A stretch of 41,297 nucleotides of DNA from a bacterium (GTDB lineage: Bacteria > Zhuqueibacterota > Zhuqueibacteria > Zhuqueibacterales > Geothermadaptataceae), in NCBI GenBank assembly GCA_024275575.1, contig JAJRYV010000104.1, forward strand, positions 1-41,297, given 5' to 3'. The notes under the pieces are model-generated. The model worked only from the letters and a program-made list of their open reading frames with translations, did no database searches and was not told the origin of the DNA. Position numbers and translations under genes: made by a program. Numbering within the stretch: position 1 is the first letter of the stretch; each line of letters begins with the position of its first letter. This document shows positions 18,857-41,297 of the stretch, piece after piece.

Positions 18857-19930
18857 ATGATGCTCGATAAATTTAAAAAGCACGAAGAGCGCTTCAAAGA
18901 ATTAACCAATATGCTCTCGGATATGGAGGTGCTCTCCAATCCCGGAAAGCTGAAGGAAATCGCAAAAGAACATAGCGATCTCGAAGCGATCATGCGGGTT
19001 TATCATCAATATCAGGAAACGCTGGCTGCCATCGCCGACGCCACATCGATCATCGAAGAGAATGAAGACCCTGAACTGGCCGAAATGGCGCAGATGGAAA
19101 TTGAAGAACAGCAACAAAATCTGCCTGCACTTGAGGATAAACTGAAATTATTTCTCGTGCCGAAAGACCCGAACGACAGCAAAAATGCCATGGTTGAAAT
19201 CCGTGCCGGCACCGGCGGAGATGAAGCGGGTTTGTTTACAGGCGATATCTTTCGCATGTATTCGCGTTACGCTGAGCGCAAAGGCTGGAAGGTCGATGTT
19301 CTCAGCTCAAATCCACAGGGTATTGGCGGTTTTAAAGAAATCATCACCTTGATTCAGGGAAAAGGCGTTTACGGCCGGATAAAATTTGAAGGCGGTGTGC
19401 ATCGCGTGCAACGGGTGCCGCAAACCGAGCAGAGCGGCCGTATCCACACCAGCGCGGTGACCGTTGCGGTTTTGCCAGAAGCAGAAGAAGTCGACTTTGC
19501 CATCGACCCGAAAGATTTAAAAATCGATGTGTACCGCAGCAGCGGGCCTGGCGGACAAAGCGTCAATACAACTGATTCCGCTGTGCGTATCACCCACATC
19601 CCGACCGGCGTTATCGTCACGTGTCAGGATGAAAAAAGTCAACACAAAAACAAAGCCAAAGCTTTGCGCGTTCTGCGCTCCCGTCTGCTCGATGCGAAGA
19701 TGGAAGAGGAAAATGAAAAAATGACGGCCAATCGCCGGAAGATGGTGAGTACCGGCGACCGCAGCGCCAAAATTCGTACGTATAATTTCCCCCAGGGCCG
19801 GATGACCGACCACCGCATCAATCTCACGCTTTATCGGCTTAATGAGATCATGGACGGTGATCTTGACGAACTCATCAAAAAACTCGCGACCGCAGAAAAA
19901 AACTTTCAAATGCAGGAATCCGGGTCGTAA
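18857..19930 (+). CDS. prfA: Peptide chain release factor 1
   Basis: 357 residues. RF1 ends translation at UAA and UAG. The codon-reading PxT motif is PQT at 188-190, the RF1 form (RF2 has SPF), and the catalytic GGQ is at 232-234 in SGPGGQSVNTTDSAVRITH. The N-terminal coiled-coil domain is intact. Its presence matters for the amber codon in csx10 downstream: a normal RF1 should read UAG as a stop in this cell. Two ATG codons stand side by side at the start. prmC follows after 2 bp. Confidence 0.97.
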   Translation: MMLDKFKKHEERFKELTNMLSDMEVLSNPGKLKEIAKEHSDLEAIMRVYHQYQETLAAIADATSIIEENEDPELAEMAQMEIEEQQQNLPALEDKLKLFLVPKDPNDSKNAMVEIRAGTGGDEAGLFTGDIFRMYSRYAERKGWKVDVLSSNPQGIGGFKEIITLIQGKGVYGRIKFEGGVHRVQRVPQTEQSGRIHTSAVTVAVLPEAEEVDFAIDPKDLKIDVYRSSGPGGQSVNTTDSAVRITHIPTGVIVTCQDEKSQHKNKAKALRVLRSRLLDAKMEEENEKMTANRRKMVSTGDRSAKIRTYNFPQGRMTDHRINLTLYRLNEIMDGDLDELIKKLATAEKNFQMQESGS

Positions 19931-34086: not shown

Positions 34087-35316
34087 GTGAACTTATTCCC
34101 TGACCACCACAAATGCGATCATCTGTTTCTGCTAGTGGGCGAAAACCCGCTGCCGCTCTACGTCGCCGCATTGTTGCTGATGGATGACGGCGGTACAATT
34201 TATCTGCTGCACTCCGATGGCGCGAACAAGACGCTCAGTACCAAGCCGTTTGCAGACTTGCTGGTGCGATCACTCAGTGTCGAGCGTCCTGACACAGAAT
34301 TTATTTATTATGGCTTGAATGAAGGCAACAGTCTGCGTATCAGAGCCGAGATGAAAACAATCCTGTCCGAGTTGAATCTGTCTCGCATGGATAGAATCGG
34401 CCTCAATTACACCGGCGGCACCAAGCCCATGGCCATCCACAGCCATGACGTGCTGGCCGAACACTTCCCGAATGCCGTTTTCAGTTACCTCGACGCCCAC
34501 AGGCTGGCGATGCAATTCGAAGGCGAAAGCAATCCGATCGATGTGGCGCGCGCACGCGAGATCAGCCTGAAAGAGCTGGCGCGATTGCATGGATACCGTG
34601 TCGATAAAATCAACCAAACACCGCGCCACGAAAAGTTTGCAAGAGCCTTGGCGGAAGTCCATAATACCGACGGCGGAATAAGGCAATGGCAGAAATGGTA
34701 TACTTCTCTGTCCAACTCGGGTGGAGCTCATCCGCAACTCCCCGACATCAAAGATTACCCTGCTCTGCGACCAATCATCACGGCATTCAACCAGGTCGGA
34801 AATGGGGAGATCGCGACTGAAAAAATCGCACAAGAGCTCGACTTCAAAAAAATCACGAGCGCAAGCAAATGGTTCATCAGTGAATGGCTCGAGGATTTGG
34901 CGTTAGCCGCCATCATTGAAAATGCGCAGGAATTCAACATCGAACATTATGCAAGCAGTCTGGAACCAATACCGCAAAGAGCGCCACAGGGAACGAAGCC
35001 GGCTAAATTCGAGCTCGATGCCGTTGCCATGCTCGGCTATCAATTGTTTGTGTTTTCTTGCATTGTCAGCCGTCCGGGAAAAGGTGAAGGTAGCGAGGTC
35101 AAAAAGCATCTCATGGAAGCCCTGGTGCGCGCTAGGCAGTTGGGTGGAGATGAAGCACGCGCTGCTGTGGTAGGCACCAGCAAGTTTCCTGAAAAAATAC
35201 AAGCTGAAGTTGAGAGAGATTGGCAAATCCGGGGAAAGGTAAGAGTGTTCGGGCGTGACGATCTTCTCAATCTGCCTGATGCTTTTCGCCAGTGGTTTGC
35301 GCAATCGAATCGATAA
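34087..35316 (+). CDS. CARF-DUF1887 effector of type III CRISPR (Can2/Card1-like)
   Basis: 409 residues with a GTG start; an in-frame ATG at 34060 is followed by a stop. The N-terminal 170 residues are a CARF domain, the sensor of cyclic oligoadenylate made by Cas10; NYTGGTK at 107-113 is its ligand-binding motif. A middle helical region leads to a C-terminal DUF1887 (PD-(D/E)xK-like) nuclease domain starting ELDAVAML (Asp311), with LGGDEARAAVVG near residue 359. Known Can2/Card1 enzymes use D-x(n)-(E/S)xK to cut DNA and RNA on ligand binding. Here the second part reads SCI at 324-326, so the catalytic Lys is not at its usual place. It is first in the operon, 10 bp before cas10. Confidence 0.85.
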   Translation: MNLFPDHHKCDHLFLLVGENPLPLYVAALLLMDDGGTIYLLHSDGANKTLSTKPFADLLVRSLSVERPDTEFIYYGLNEGNSLRIRAEMKTILSELNLSRMDRIGLNYTGGTKPMAIHSHDVLAEHFPNAVFSYLDAHRLAMQFEGESNPIDVARAREISLKELARLHGYRVDKINQTPRHEKFARALAEVHNTDGGIRQWQKWYTSLSNSGGAHPQLPDIKDYPALRPIITAFNQVGNGEIATEKIAQELDFKKITSASKWFISEWLEDLALAAIIENAQEFNIEHYASSLEPIPQRAPQGTKPAKFELDAVAMLGYQLFVFSCIVSRPGKGEGSEVKKHLMEALVRARQLGGDEARAAVVGTSKFPEKIQAEVERDWQIRGKVRVFGRDDLLNLPDAFRQWFAQSNR

Positions 35317-35326
35317 GGAGAATACC

Positions 35327-37012
35327 ATGCCACAATACACACTCGTTTTACTTGAAGTCACGGGCATTCAGGATTACGTTTTCAAGAGCAATAACCTGTA
35401 TCAGAATATCGGCGCCTCGGAGCTTGTGGAAATAGTTACGGATGAATGGCTGGTTGAATCTCTTGTAAACGAATCCCTGCAAAGCAACGTGACCTGGGAT
35501 GAGGATGATGGATTGAAGTATGATTCGAAAAAGCGCCTGCCGGATTCCGAGCTGGACATCGAGCTGGTTTATCGCGGCGGCGGTGTAGCTATGTTTCTCT
35601 TTGTCGAGAAAGAAAAGGCGATGGATTTCATGAAAAGACTCACGCGCAAGACCCTTGAGGAAGCGCCCGGCCTGCAACCCGTGGCCATTTATGAACCATT
35701 CGATTGGGAAAAGGATTCCCTGGCTGAGAAGCACCGAGAGCTTCGCGGCAAGCTCGCTGCCCGCAAGCTCGATCGCAGCCATTCCGCACCATTGGCGGGA
35801 CTCGGCGTGACCGCTAAGTGCGTGTTTACCGGCATGCCGGCAGTGGGATGGGATGACGATCCTGAGCTGGTCGGGCATGATGCTGCCAAGCGCAAAGAAC
35901 ACCTGGAGGGTCCACCGCAACGCATCTCCGCCGAGGTCGCAAAAAAATTAAAACACGCGCACTGCGCCAGGGAGAGACTGGCGAAGATCACTCCTATGGT
36001 CGATGAGCAAGGATTCGAGTTTGCGGCCAATTTCAATGACTTTGGCGAAAAAGGCACCTCGAGCTACATTGCCGTGATTCATGCGGATGGCAATGCCATG
36101 GGCGAGAGATTCAACAAGATCGGCGAAAAATTTCACGAAGCTAAAAAGAACGGTGATTACATTCAAAAATTGCGCGAGTTTTCGCTCTCAATTGAAGACA
36201 ACGCCAAAGAAGCGCTTAAAGAAACGATCAGCTACTTGCTCTATCACTGGCCGGAATATGAGGAAAAAGTCGGCGTTTCTGCCAAACGCAATTCCGGCAA
36301 CAGGAAGCTGCTGCCCTTCCGACCGATCGTGTTCGGCGGCGATGACGTGACGTTTGTAAGCGAAGGCAGACTGGGATTGGTGTTGGCGGCAAAGTACCTG
36401 CAAGCGCTTTCAACGACGAAGCTCAGTGACAATGGAAAACCATTGTACGCGCGCGCTGGCGTTGCAGTGGTCAAATCGCACTATCCCTTCTCTCGCGCCT
36501 ACGATTTGGCAGATAAATTGGCTGCAGAAGCAAAAAAGAAAATCGTCGATCGGACACAAACGAACGAAGAAAATACCTTTATGATGGATTGGCATTTCTC
36601 GACAACTGGCGTCGAAGCTGGATTGCAAGAGATACGAAATCGCGAATATATGAGTGAAAACGGAAAATCGCTCTTGATGCGGCCGGTGCGGGTTGCGGAA
36701 ATCGCCGGAAGAACGACTATCTGGCAAACCTGGCAGATATTTTCCAACCTGGTGAGCGCATTTCAAAACAGCGATGACTGGTCAGGCAGGAGAAACAAGG
36801 TCAAAGCCCTGCGTGATGCGTTGCGACAAGGGCAAGAAGCGGTCAGACTTTTTCTCAGAAATTTTGGCCTTGACAATCTTCCCGAAATTCCCGGATTGGA
36901 AAACATGGCGACAACCGGCTGGCAGGGCGATGACTGCGGCTACTTCGATGCTATCGAAGCGCTCGATTTTGTCATCGCTTTCAACGAAAACAAGAACGGT
37001 GGGAAATCATGA
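35327..37012 (+). CDS. cas10: Cas10 large subunit, type III-D, without HD nuclease domain
   Basis: 561 residues from ATG 35327, with AAGGAG six bases upstream. The protein begins directly with a Cas10 N-terminal segment (LLEVTGIQDYVFKSNNLYQN, then GASELVE), without any HD domain before it. The first palm domain follows near residue 245 (AVIHADGNAMGERF). The catalytic GGDD of the cyclase is intact at 337-340 (PIVFGGDDVTFV). A zinc finger is not evident. By family knowledge the palm makes cyclic oligoadenylates from ATP when target RNA is bound. HD-less Cas10 is a trait of subtype III-D, so single-stranded DNA cutting is not expected from this subunit. Its stop overlaps the cas7 start. Confidence 0.93.
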   Translation: MPQYTLVLLEVTGIQDYVFKSNNLYQNIGASELVEIVTDEWLVESLVNESLQSNVTWDEDDGLKYDSKKRLPDSELDIELVYRGGGVAMFLFVEKEKAMDFMKRLTRKTLEEAPGLQPVAIYEPFDWEKDSLAEKHRELRGKLAARKLDRSHSAPLAGLGVTAKCVFTGMPAVGWDDDPELVGHDAAKRKEHLEGPPQRISAEVAKKLKHAHCARERLAKITPMVDEQGFEFAANFNDFGEKGTSSYIAVIHADGNAMGERFNKIGEKFHEAKKNGDYIQKLREFSLSIEDNAKEALKETISYLLYHWPEYEEKVGVSAKRNSGNRKLLPFRPIVFGGDDVTFVSEGRLGLVLAAKYLQALSTTKLSDNGKPLYARAGVAVVKSHYPFSRAYDLADKLAAEAKKKIVDRTQTNEENTFMMDWHFSTTGVEAGLQEIRNREYMSENGKSLLMRPVRVAEIAGRTTIWQTWQIFSNLVSAFQNSDDWSGRRNKVKALRDALRQGQEAVRLFLRNFGLDNLPEIPGLENMATTGWQGDDCGYFDAIEALDFVIAFNENKNGGKS

Positions 37013-37701
37013 ACACACTTTGGTTGACATTGACGCTACGCAGCGATTCCACTTTCGGCCGCGGCGATGGCGTGGTTGGCGTGGTGGATAGCGAGGTGCA
37101 GCATGATGAATATGGCTTGCCCTATCTGAGCGGCAAAACTCTGAAAGGACTGCTTTGCGCCGAATGCGCCGAGGTACTCTACGCGCTCAAAGAAGCGAAG
37201 TGCGCCGATCTCTCGGACTGGGAAGACAGCGCGCGTTGGCTTTTCGGTGAATCGGGCAATCGAATCGAGAACATCGGCAATATGCACGTTGGCGACGCCC
37301 GGCTGCCGGAAGATTTGCGCCTCACGGTGATGGATGAGGTTCATTTAGAGCACGTGTCGAAACAGCAAATGCTCGATACGCTGACAACGATTCGGCGGCA
37401 AAGCGCCATCGACGAGGCCACCGGCGCGCCGAAAAAGGAAGCGCTGCGCGCCACCCGTGTTATTCTCCGCGAGACTGTTTTCGAAGCCAGGTTGGACTTC
37501 ATGCAGCAGCCGCAACCTCGTGAACTGGCGTTGCTCGCCGCTTGCGTGAAGGTATTTCGTCGCGCCGGAACCGAGCGCCACCGAGGCAGGGGGCGCTTGC
37601 ACGCTGAACTTTACGACAAGTCCCCTTTTGTGCATACCGAAGAAGTCGCAGCAACAACGGACAATTATTATAGTGATTTTCGAGAGGCGGTGCTATCATG
37701 A
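37009..37701 (+). CDS. Cas7-family RAMP protein (Csm3-like)
   Basis: 230 residues, a single RAMP domain. It overlaps both neighbours in ATGA, so it is translationally coupled. The N-terminal strand LWLTLTLRSDSTFGRG leads to VGVVDSEVQHDEYGLPYLSG and KTLKGLL, the usual Csm3 motif pair. Asp27 lies where Csm3 has its RNA-cutting aspartate. Near the end, ERHRGRGRLHAEL is the glycine-rich loop typical of RAMPs. It would bind crRNA along the backbone and cut target RNA. In fused III-D variants this Cas7 is joined to Cas5; here it is separate. It could be annotated as csm3. Confidence 0.9.
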   Translation: MNTLWLTLTLRSDSTFGRGDGVVGVVDSEVQHDEYGLPYLSGKTLKGLLCAECAEVLYALKEAKCADLSDWEDSARWLFGESGNRIENIGNMHVGDARLPEDLRLTVMDEVHLEHVSKQQMLDTLTTIRRQSAIDEATGAPKKEALRATRVILRETVFEARLDFMQQPQPRELALLAACVKVFRRAGTERHRGRGRLHAELYDKSPFVHTEEVAATTDNYYSDFREAVLS

Positions 37702-38357
37702 AAGCATTGACATTTTTACTCAGTCTTCAAGAGCCGGTGCTTGCGACGCAGCCGCATAGCGGCGAAGCCAACAGCAAAACCGGCTTTCCTTTCATCCCCG
37801 GCAGCATGATTCGCGGCGCATTGATTCGCAAGTGCCTTCCTGGCAACCCCGATGCATTGCTCGACGATGCATTCCGGCGCCGGTTTTTCGAAGATGGCGT
37901 TTATTTTCTCCATGCCTATCCTGCTCATCGCAAATCGGGCGCACGCATGTTGCCGCAGCCGTTTTCCTGGTTTGTCGAAAAGGATCAGGTTGATGTTCCG
38001 GCTGATGAAATGGATGCTATCTGCGATTTCGCTTTGAAGGTTAGCGACGATCCGGAGCAACCCAGGGCGCCGAAATACGAATTTTGCCACGTCGAGGATG
38101 GTGTTGTGCATCTTGAAAAGGCCAGTTTCAAAGTGACCGTGCATAATGCCAGCGATGACCGCAACAAGCGCGGCAAGGGCAAAAGCCAGGTGTTTCGCTA
38201 CGAAGCATTAGCTGCGGGACAGGACTTCGCCGGCGCGATCGTGGCGGAAGATGAAGCGATTTTGCGCGATCTAAAGCCGCTTCTCGAACAGGGCACGATG
38301 TTTCTGGGCGGTGCACATACCGGCGGCTATGGCAGAGTACTTGTCTCGAATGTGTAG
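37698..38357 (+). CDS. csx10: Csx10 (Cas5-like), N-terminal part, ending at an in-frame amber codon
   Basis: 219 residues from an ATG overlapping the cas7 stop. It opens LTFLLSLQEPVLATQPHSGE with FPFIPGSMIRGALIRK, the Csx10 N-terminal RAMP signature, and ends with the glycine-rich loop GGAHTGGYGRVLVSNV followed by TAG at 38355-38357. The next ORF continues in the same frame at the very next codon and carries the C-terminal part of Csx10. The TAG therefore splits what looks like one gene. Csx10 is the Cas5-family subunit of III-D complexes, expected to hold the 5' tag of the crRNA next to Cas10. See the companion entry for readthrough versus mutation. Confidence 0.86.
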   Translation: MKALTFLLSLQEPVLATQPHSGEANSKTGFPFIPGSMIRGALIRKCLPGNPDALLDDAFRRRFFEDGVYFLHAYPAHRKSGARMLPQPFSWFVEKDQVDVPADEMDAICDFALKVSDDPEQPRAPKYEFCHVEDGVVHLEKASFKVTVHNASDDRNKRGKGKSQVFRYEALAAGQDFAGAIVAEDEAILRDLKPLLEQGTMFLGGAHTGGYGRVLVSNV

Positions 38358-39269
38358 TTGAAAGCTAATTGGCAGGAGTATTCCGAGGAAGAACCTTACG
38401 TTGATGATGAGACAGAGGAAGAAATCGTCACCGTCACGCTGCTCAGCGACGCCATCGTGCGCGACGAAAACGGAAATATGTTATTGGATACAGCGAAGGC
38501 TCTTGGTATCGAGCGGCCAGTTGGAGATGATATGTATCGAGCTTACGCGAAAACGCGCCTGATCGGCGGCTTCAATCGCAAATGGGGTCTGCCGCTGCCG
38601 CAATGCTGGACCCTGGCTGCAGGCAGTGTTTTGCGCTGTCCGGCAGATAAAGTAGATCGTGAAAAATTGAACGGCTATGTGGAGCACGGCGTCGGCGAGC
38701 GGCGCAACGAGGGCCTCGGACGCATTGCGGTGAACTGGCAAACCTTGCCAAAGCTTGAGCGAACCGAAGCGAAAAAATCCCCCAAAAAACCTGGTATTGT
38801 GCTCTCGGCAAAAAGCAGTGAGATGGCGGAAAACATGGCGAAACGGCTGCTGCGCAATCAGCTCGAAAGCGAGTTGGTCGCGCTTCTCGATGCCGCGAAG
38901 ACACAATTGCAATCTCCACTACCCTCCTCCGCACAGTTCTCCCGCGTGCGCGTCGCTGCCCGCTATGCCCATCTCACCGGCCAAATTGAAATAATATCAA
39001 AACACATGGATTTAATCAAAGAACATGGCGCCAAAGAAGACTGGCAGCACGCCGAATTCGAGGGCGAGTCGTTTTTCGATTGGGTGAAAGAAATGTGCGA
39101 ATTGAGCAGCTTTGAAAAGAAATTTCTGCAAAAGAAAAGTCTGCCGAAGATTGCCGGTAAGACAGCACAAACCGATAATGAATTGCGCACAACGTATCTC
39201 GCGCGCTATATCGATGGCGTCATGAAGCTCGGCGTCAAGCAGAACCAGGCCAATAGAGGAGAGCGATGA
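38358..39269 (+). CDS. csx10: Csx10 C-terminal part with helical (Cas11-like?) tail, after in-frame amber codon
   Basis: 303 residues directly after the TAG, in the same frame as the first part. The first codon is TTG with no Shine-Dalgarno, so independent initiation looks weak. Its first 145 residues hold the second half of Csx10: VTVTLLSDAIVRDENGNMLL, TRLIGGFNRKWGLPLPQC, LAAGSVLRC and GVGERRNEGLGRIAVNW. From about residue 165 to the end the protein is highly helical and charged (MAENMAKRLLRNQLESELVA), resembling a small-subunit (Cas11) type segment; that is inference. It overlaps the double-Cas7 gene by ATGA. Alternatives are a nonsense mutation, programmed readthrough, or a genuinely split subunit. 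No missing or frameshifted residues are visible apart from the stop. Confidence 0.82.
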   Translation: MKANWQEYSEEEPYVDDETEEEIVTVTLLSDAIVRDENGNMLLDTAKALGIERPVGDDMYRAYAKTRLIGGFNRKWGLPLPQCWTLAAGSVLRCPADKVDREKLNGYVEHGVGERRNEGLGRIAVNWQTLPKLERTEAKKSPKKPGIVLSAKSSEMAENMAKRLLRNQLESELVALLDAAKTQLQSPLPSSAQFSRVRVAARYAHLTGQIEIISKHMDLIKEHGAKEDWQHAEFEGESFFDWVKEMCELSSFEKKFLQKKSLPKIAGKTAQTDNELRTTYLARYIDGVMKLGVKQNQANRGER

Positions 39270-40753
39270 TGCAAGCACAATGGCAAAACAGCCGCAAGGT
39301 GTCAGAGCGAATTTTCATCCAGGGCGAGCTGGTTTTGGAGACTCCGGCCAATTTCGGCAACGGCGACACCGATAGCTTGACCGATATTCCGATCCTGTTC
39401 GATACCCTTGATGATAAAAAGCCTCTGCTCTCCGGCACCTCGATTGCCGGCGCGCTGCGCAATTACCTGCGCCAACTCGAAGCCGGATATGGCGCGAAAG
39501 AAGGCCGGGACGGCGCACTTATGGCGGAAAGATTGTTCGGCTATCTGGACGAGGATAAAAAGAACGATCGCACCGACAGCATTTTGAGCTGGCTGATGGT
39601 CGATGATGCCCTGGGCGAATTGCCTGGTGACAAAAATGCCATCGAGCTGCGGGATGGCGTGGCCATCGATCCGAAAACGAGAACAGCGAAACTGGATAAA
39701 AACAAAAAGGGACAAAAATTCGATCTCGAGCTTCTGGCTGCTGGTACGAGGTTTCGGCTGCACTTCGAGTTCTGGCTCAACGAGAACAATCGATCGTACC
39801 TGGAAGCGCTGGCGCTGGCGCTCAAAGGCTTTGAAGAAGGCACTATCGGCCTCGGCCTGCGGAAGAACAGGGGCTATGGCCGGTGCAAGGTGGCCGGCTG
39901 GCAGATTCAGCGCTATCGCATGGACGATAAAAACGGCATCTTGAACTGGCTCTCACATCAGGAGCCGGAACAGGATGTGTTCCAGTCGGATATCATGCGC
40001 CTGCTCGACGTTTCGTCTGATCAGACACACCAGGGCGAGAAATTCGTTTTGGATGCACAATTCAAGCTCGACAGCTCGCTGCTGATTCGCTCCGGCACCG
40101 GCAATCCCGCAGGCACGGATTTCGTGCATCTGCGCTCCCTGCGCATAGATAGCGATGATGACCCGCAGTTTGCAATGAAGCCGGTTCTCTCCGGCACGAG
40201 CCTCGCCGGCGTGATCCGCCATCGCGCCCAACGCATCGCGCTGACCATGATCGAAAACGAAAAAGCCGCAGATGCTCTTGTGAACGGGATGTTCGGTTTC
40301 ACCGATAAGAAAAAATCGCAAGGCAGCCGCGTCGCCATTCGTGAAACCGAAATCAAAAACGGCGTCGACGATCTCATTCAAACCCGCATCAAGATCGACC
40401 GTTTTACCGGCGGCGCTTATCCCAACGCGCTGTTCAGCGAACAGCCGGTATTCGGCAAATCCAAAACCGATACGTGCGTCCACCTGCACCTCGAGCTGCG
40501 CAAGACCCCGGCTGCCAGGTACTTCGAGGCCGAAGTCGGCTTGCTGCTGCTCGTGCTCAAAGATTTGTGGACCGGCGATCTGCCGGTCGGCGGAGAGAGC
40601 AGCGTCGGGCGTGGCAGATTGTTCGGTGTCAATGCCAAAATGTACCTCGGCGACAAAATGTGGGAAATCATTCAAAAGGAAAGCGGGCTCGAATTCAAAG
40701 GCAAGCACGATGACTTACAGAAACGATTTGTCAACGCATTTCTGGAGATATAG
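39266..40753 (+). CDS. Tandem double Cas7 RAMP protein (Cas7-2x-like)
   Basis: 495 residues comprising two Csm3-like units in one chain. Unit 1 (about 10-220) has TDIPILFD, PLLSGTSIAGALRNYLRQ and the glycine-rich GLRKNRGYGRCKV. Unit 2 (about 255-475) has GTDFVHLRS, PVLSGTSLAGVIRHRAQ and GGESSVGRGRLFG. Asp40 and Asp285 are in the positions of the Csm3 RNA-cutting aspartate, so both units may be active. Sequence between units resembles a linker (HQEPEQDVFQSDIMRLLDVS). A GGAG lies a few bases before the start. Together with the single Cas7 the complex would have at least three Cas7 units per copy of each protein. Tandem Cas7 in one chain is known from the fused III-D variant. Confidence 0.9.
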   Translation: MMQAQWQNSRKVSERIFIQGELVLETPANFGNGDTDSLTDIPILFDTLDDKKPLLSGTSIAGALRNYLRQLEAGYGAKEGRDGALMAERLFGYLDEDKKNDRTDSILSWLMVDDALGELPGDKNAIELRDGVAIDPKTRTAKLDKNKKGQKFDLELLAAGTRFRLHFEFWLNENNRSYLEALALALKGFEEGTIGLGLRKNRGYGRCKVAGWQIQRYRMDDKNGILNWLSHQEPEQDVFQSDIMRLLDVSSDQTHQGEKFVLDAQFKLDSSLLIRSGTGNPAGTDFVHLRSLRIDSDDDPQFAMKPVLSGTSLAGVIRHRAQRIALTMIENEKAADALVNGMFGFTDKKKSQGSRVAIRETEIKNGVDDLIQTRIKIDRFTGGAYPNALFSEQPVFGKSKTDTCVHLHLELRKTPAARYFEAEVGLLLLVLKDLWTGDLPVGGESSVGRGRLFGVNAKMYLGDKMWEIIQKESGLEFKGKHDDLQKRFVNAFLEI

Positions 40754-40755
40754 CC

Positions 40756-41297
40756 ATGAGCGATCCATGTCAAAAAGTAACGATCAATCCAGCAACCGAT
40801 GAAGAATTAAAAGCCTGGCTGGCTGAAAAAGCGCAGGAATACAAACTGCCGTTTCTGCTCGCCCATGCCGATGACGGCGTGATCTGGGGAAGGTTTGGCG
40901 GAAGCGTCGGCCTCGCCATCTCCGGCGAGGTTTTCGATGAGGTCGCAGTGGCGCTGCGCCCGCTCACCTTGCAGCAGGCTCGGCTCTTCGGCCCTGAAGG
41001 AGAAATGCTGATCTGGCGCAACGGTGCAGAATTTTCCGCACGCGTGCTCGCCGATGGAGAGCAGGAGGCTGAAAACACATTTCAGGAAAGGCACTGGCTC
41101 TGGGGCGAGGGCGTGGAATCGAAAAACGGTTCCACTTTGATGCATGAAGGCCGTGAAGGCCTGCGTCACGCCCCGCCGGTCGAAAATGCCAAAGGCGCGC
41201 GCATCGGCCTGCTGGTGCGGCACTATATCGAATATGACGAATATGGCCTGGCTTATATCGCCGGCAGCAGGTTGGTGAATCTCGAAACCAATTGGGA
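40756..41297 (+). CDS. csx19: Csx19 family protein of type III-D CRISPR, cut by window edge
   Basis: ATG 40756 opens 180 codons that run off the right edge without a stop. The sequence has features I associate with Csx19 (the all1473-like family): LLAHADDGVIWGRFG near residue 35, LQQARLFGPEGEMLIWRNG near residue 75, HWLWGEG near 114, and LLVRHYIEYDEYGLAYIAGS before SRLVNLETNW. Csx19 is a III-D-specific subunit that, in the structurally known fused III-D complex, belongs to the effector particle; its exact role is not settled. It starts 2 bp after the double-Cas7 stop. A typical Csx19 is about 150-200 residues, so most of the gene is inside the window. Confidence 0.8.
   Translation, partial: MSDPCQKVTINPATDEELKAWLAEKAQEYKLPFLLAHADDGVIWGRFGGSVGLAISGEVFDEVAVALRPLTLQQARLFGPEGEMLIWRNGAEFSARVLADGEQEAENTFQERHWLWGEGVESKNGSTLMHEGREGLRHAPPVENAKGARIGLLVRHYIEYDEYGLAYIAGSRLVNLETNW

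Follow-up and report, generated by a model that had tools for sequence, protein, structure and literature searches.

When an amber codon interrupts the frame of csx10 in a type III-D CRISPR operon, is the product a novel split or recoded protein, or has the gene recently been broken? The question arises in the window, by which we mean the whole 41,297-nucleotide stretch of DNA analyzed here. Its operon encodes a CARF nuclease, Cas10, Cas7, Csx10, a double Cas7 and Csx19, in an order shared with cyanobacterial plasmid loci and with loci from other members of its genus and taxonomic order (Table 1). Type III-D membership is indicated by csx10 (Cas5_IIId), cas10, the cas7 genes and csx19, all of which are present, with csx10 interrupted. 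The csx10 gene occupies a single frame from an ATG at 37698 to a TGA at 39267-39269, and its translation gives 219 residues, the TAG and a further 303 residues, with no change of frame and no other stop.

Table 1. Features of the type III-D operon and of its interrupted csx10, with positions in the window.
Feature	Position	Strand	Basis
CARF-PD-DExK nuclease (Card1/Csx1-like), first gene of the operon	34087..35316	+	profile matches
cas10, type III-D type, GGDD motif kept	35327..37012	+	profile matches, sequence
cas7 (Cas7_IIId)	37009..37701	+	profile matches
csx10 N-terminal part, first RAMP/RRM-like Cas5 subdomain, 219 aa, ends at the TAG	37698..38357	+	profile matches, predicted structure
In-frame TAG in csx10, codon 220, boundary of the two Cas5 subdomains	38355..38357	+	translation, homologue alignment, predicted structure
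csx10 C-terminal part, second Cas5 subdomain and Cas11-like helical domain fused to it, TTG 38358 as first possible start	38358..39269	+	profiles, predicted structure
Double cas7 fusion (cas7-2x type), ordinary TAG at its end	39266..40753	+	profile matches, translation
csx19 (TIGR03984), truncated by the contig end	40756..41297	+	profile matches

The two halves of csx10 match the same families. In a profile search with the Csx10 model TIGR02674 they aligned colinearly to positions 1-242 and 278-396. With the PADLOC model PDLC02090 (Cas5_IIId, 499 positions), residues 1-219 aligned to positions 1-212 (183 bits) and residues 221-523 to positions 218-497 (205 bits). When the TAG was read through, a single PDLC02090 match of 404 bits, slightly above the sum of the halves, extended over residues 1-516 and model positions 1-496. 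A full-length Cas5_IIId match in one chain is obtained only in this way; as encoded, csx10 is two ORFs. The read-through protein scores 101 bits with TIGR02674, below the cut-off of 177, as do the intact proteins of a genome of the same genus (G001, 155 bits) and of a member of the Anaerolineae (L063, 136 bits). The halves represent successive stretches of a single family, not a chance pairing of neighboring genes. The single frame, the colinear matches and the read-through score together confirm the claim of the first-pass annotation that an in-frame TAG splits csx10 of a III-D operon, and the interruption is a real observation.

We then located the stop within the protein. In the structure predicted for the read-through Csx10 (mean pLDDT 89), residues 213-222 form a strand and are followed by a linker; the second Cas5 subdomain then starts with a strand at 242-248, and the C-terminal part is helical from residue 371. 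In the Synechocystis III-Dv Cas7-Cas5-Cas11 chain (8s9t_A), the family profile spans residues 320-777, which comprise the Cas5 and Cas11 parts. This chain is also the best fold match of the read-through protein, and the window Csx10 is therefore a Cas5-Cas11 fusion. According to the prediction, the TAG cuts the first Cas5 subdomain off from the rest two residues short of the end of its strand. By chance, about 9% of the one-step routes to a stop would be expected at the subdomain boundary.

An alignment query found 153 relatives, and 80 of them were kept and fetched from species-representative genomes. Both halves of csx10 lie in one ORF in all 80 and the gene is split in none. Because tblastn matches can cross a single in-frame stop, interrupted homologues should not have been missed by this route. 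Four csx10 copies on cyanobacterial plasmids are likewise unbroken. The three closest relatives that carry a csx10 of full length, G001 from the same genus and G010 and G013 from the same order, also have it whole. Scanning genomes with the C-terminal half alone gave no relative, and a scan of IMG/VR likewise yielded none. Four homologues (L063, L070, L071 and L081) align across the stop without a gap, with one codon opposite the TAG, which agrees with the earlier statement that there is no indel at the junction. Just downstream of the TAG the sequence keeps W225 and E227, two residues that hardly vary across the family. The stop is absent from these nearly 90 relatives, which have a sense codon or an unbroken ORF at this point, and the frame is otherwise colinear with intact homologues. 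The situation that would have spoken against one divided gene, homologues in which the halves are unrelated proteins from separate genes, was not seen among the 80. Two candidate interruptions proved to be something else: the 'RAMP (x2)' of the cyanobacterial plasmid loci is a 4-base overlap of a whole csx10 with the upstream cas7, and a TAA thought to lie within the csx10 of G001 is its terminal stop.

These results make it probable that the TAG arose recently, by a nonsense point mutation confined to this lineage. Favoring this reading are the absence of the stop from the 80 homologues, the four plasmid copies and the three nearest relatives, and the continuation of the frame without an indel and with conserved linker residues. 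Translation would halt after residue 219, leaving a fragment with the first of the two RRM-like Cas5 subdomains, while the second subdomain and the Cas11-like domain would not be produced in useful amounts. Published type III structures show Cas5 at the base of the complex, where it contacts the crRNA guide tightly (PMC9945777). As Cas5 grips the 5' handle of the crRNA at this base, the III-D effector would be expected not to assemble when the second subdomain and the Cas11 part are missing. We infer both that csx10 function is lost and that the called T-A-G is real.

A functional protein could nevertheless be made from two chains, with termination at the TAG, re-initiation at the adjoining TTG and assembly of the Cas5 subdomains from separate polypeptides, possibly limiting the amount of complex. 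The stop falls where the last strand of the first subdomain ends, ahead of the linker to the second, a possible start codon follows it directly, and the C-terminal half is undamaged; the position and the start codon count against a nonsense mutation. The III-Dv effector, moreover, already joins modular domains by long linkers (PMC11026444). Against two chains stand the lack of any split among the 80 homologues and the start itself. TTG is a weak start codon, and we found no Shine-Dalgarno pairing for TTG 38358 with a generic anti-Shine-Dalgarno sequence, unlike the starts of cas10, cas7, csx10, cas7-2x and csx19, which pair at -5.4 to -6.9 kcal/mol with the same sequence. The CARF nuclease gene that opens the operon, taken at a GTG, also lacks such pairing. 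Re-initiation can occur without a Shine-Dalgarno sequence, though it would be weak from TTG. With no ribosome-binding site at the in-frame TTG, little of the C-terminal part would be made. A literature search found no split Cas5 in type III-D. We consider a natural split, one of the options raised by the first-pass annotation, unlikely, given that none of the 80 homologues is divided and that a ribosome-binding site is lacking for the second ORF.

An internal in-frame ATG at 38532 has Shine-Dalgarno-like pairing (-6.4 kcal/mol) and could yield a C-terminal product of 245 residues that contains the Cas11-like domain. Cas11 is made by internal translation in other CRISPR types. The methionine at this position looks unconserved in an eight-sequence alignment. 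As a rescue of a split Cas5 this start was rejected, since its product would lack the strand with which the second subdomain opens.

We also examined whether UAG is read as sense. The genome encodes RF1 (18860-19918 in the window), and among the 41 tRNA genes found none has a CUA anticodon, so that the suppressor tRNA proposed as worth seeking did not turn up. The sole match to PylRS was below the cut-off, and 13 of 14 control genomes have a similar one. In a sample of 400 kb plus the window, TAG terminates 46 of 288 genes (16%), and when seven TAG-ended genes of the sample were read through in frame, no Pfam domain crossed the TAG. In-frame ORF pairs in the sample were mostly ordinary neighbors sharing a frame, and their count was not used as evidence. 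Decoding of amber as an amino acid throughout the genome, by a suppressor tRNA or as pyrrolysine, has nothing in its favor beyond the interrupted csx10 itself and is extremely unlikely. The first-pass annotation had reached the same view from RF1 and from TAG as an ordinary stop elsewhere, such as at the end of the double cas7, and the tRNA and stop codon counts strengthen it. The same three observations (no UAG-reading tRNA found, RF1 present, TAG an ordinary stop) favor the nonsense mutation.

Regulated or leaky readthrough at the single csx10 stop would yield some full-length protein. The frame remains open, the linker residues right after the TAG are kept, and near-cognate tRNAs are present as in any genome. 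The base following the TAG, however, is U. A U in the +4 position lowers readthrough in E. coli and yeast, and readthrough of UAG-U is low in yeast (PMC5289835); the earlier hint that a T after the TAG favors readthrough thus points the opposite way. With this context, no suppressor tRNA among the 41 and the stop in no homologue, readthrough is very unlikely.

The TAG could also be technical in origin, a wrong consensus base or a strain mixture, with the natural csx10 intact in most or all cells. A single base would suffice and csx10 otherwise looks undamaged. The assembly is fragmented (144 contigs); the window contig stops within csx19 and lacks the TIGR03986 gene that would be expected on it, a gene not found elsewhere in the assembly either. 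Consensus base errors are, however, rare in short-read assemblies, and the operon in the window has no other lesion, all genes but csx10 being open. An error of this kind is accordingly improbable.

The open state of the remaining operon would follow from the proposed youth of the event. Without constraint, about two more disabling lesions would be expected per 1% divergence, at one indel per ten substitutions. As there are no further lesions, neutral divergence since the stop would be at most about 1.5%. Of the columns conserved in at least 90% of the sequences, 37 of 40 are kept after the stop and 31 of 35 before it, compared with a homologue average of 95% in both parts. An undamaged C-terminal half fits either a young stop or, as judged from sequence, a gene that may still be under selection; the 37 of 40 columns would be equally explained by a functional split and to that extent count against the nonsense mutation.

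A second cas10 of the III-D type is encoded in the same genome, on the minus strand at the start of contig C28 (L165:105-1460). It has TAA, TAA and TGA stops in one otherwise continuous frame, lacks a segment relative to its homologues and has SGDN in place of GGDD. By its sequence this cas10 is a decayed gene at a contig edge, with decay far advanced, which makes a continuing loss of III-D genes in this genome plausible.

In the csx10 tree the window sequence falls in a set of 11, mostly from Chloroflexota (support 100/98), apart from the csx10 of its own genus. The G+C content of the III-D operon (34087-41297) is 53% versus 46% in the remaining window. Together these suggest that the operon was acquired horizontally. 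The genome has a separate type I system that looks whole: at the start of contig C31 (L166:1-9400), a type I-like cas operon with cas1, cas2, a cas3-like gene and others adjoins a CRISPR array of at least 15 identical 30-base repeats (GTTTCAATCCCACGCTGATTCAATTCAAAC). Contig C21 (L167, whole, 7697 bases) encodes an apparent reverse transcriptase-Cas1 fusion of 784 codons with RAMP genes, and the end of contig C23 (L168:9863-15554) a Cmr2-type cas10 with adjoining RAMP genes. The cas genes of C21 and C23 are possibly parts of one type III-B locus.

Of the four options left by the first-pass annotation, the recent nonsense mutation fits best, readthrough and a natural split are disfavored, and an assembly error keeps the low probability given above. 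A novel split or recoded protein is unlikely, and an ordinary recent nonsense mutation breaking the system is most likely. The locus would then be one more CRISPR effector operon being lost, of interest chiefly to annotators, who should mark csx10 as interrupted and not as a new two-gene Csx10. If a functional split were true, a type III Cas5 could be built from two chains, with a bearing on the evolution of the fused III-Dv and III-E effectors.

Among the closest known systems, the cyanobacterial III-D locus of Anabaena cylindrica plasmid pANACY.01 (NC_019772.1, L016) has the gene order of the window with TIGR03986 downstream; its csx10 is uninterrupted at 548 codons, whereas that of the window is broken at codon 220 and the contig ends before TIGR03986. 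The closest sequences, at about 40-43% identity, are the csx10 of Anaerolineae in the Chloroflexota (L063, L064 and L067), with L063 colinear across the stop without a gap, but these have a sense codon opposite the TAG. Like the window csx10, the decayed cas10 of L165 is a III-D-like effector gene with in-frame stops in one frame, though it has several stops, a missing segment and SGDN where csx10 has one TAG. In the Synechocystis type III-Dv Cas7-Cas5-Cas11 protein (PDB 8s9t), the Cas5 and Cas11 parts match the window Csx10 by profile and fold. That protein is one unbroken chain headed by a fused Cas7, while the window has a stand-alone cas7 gene and an interrupted Cas5.
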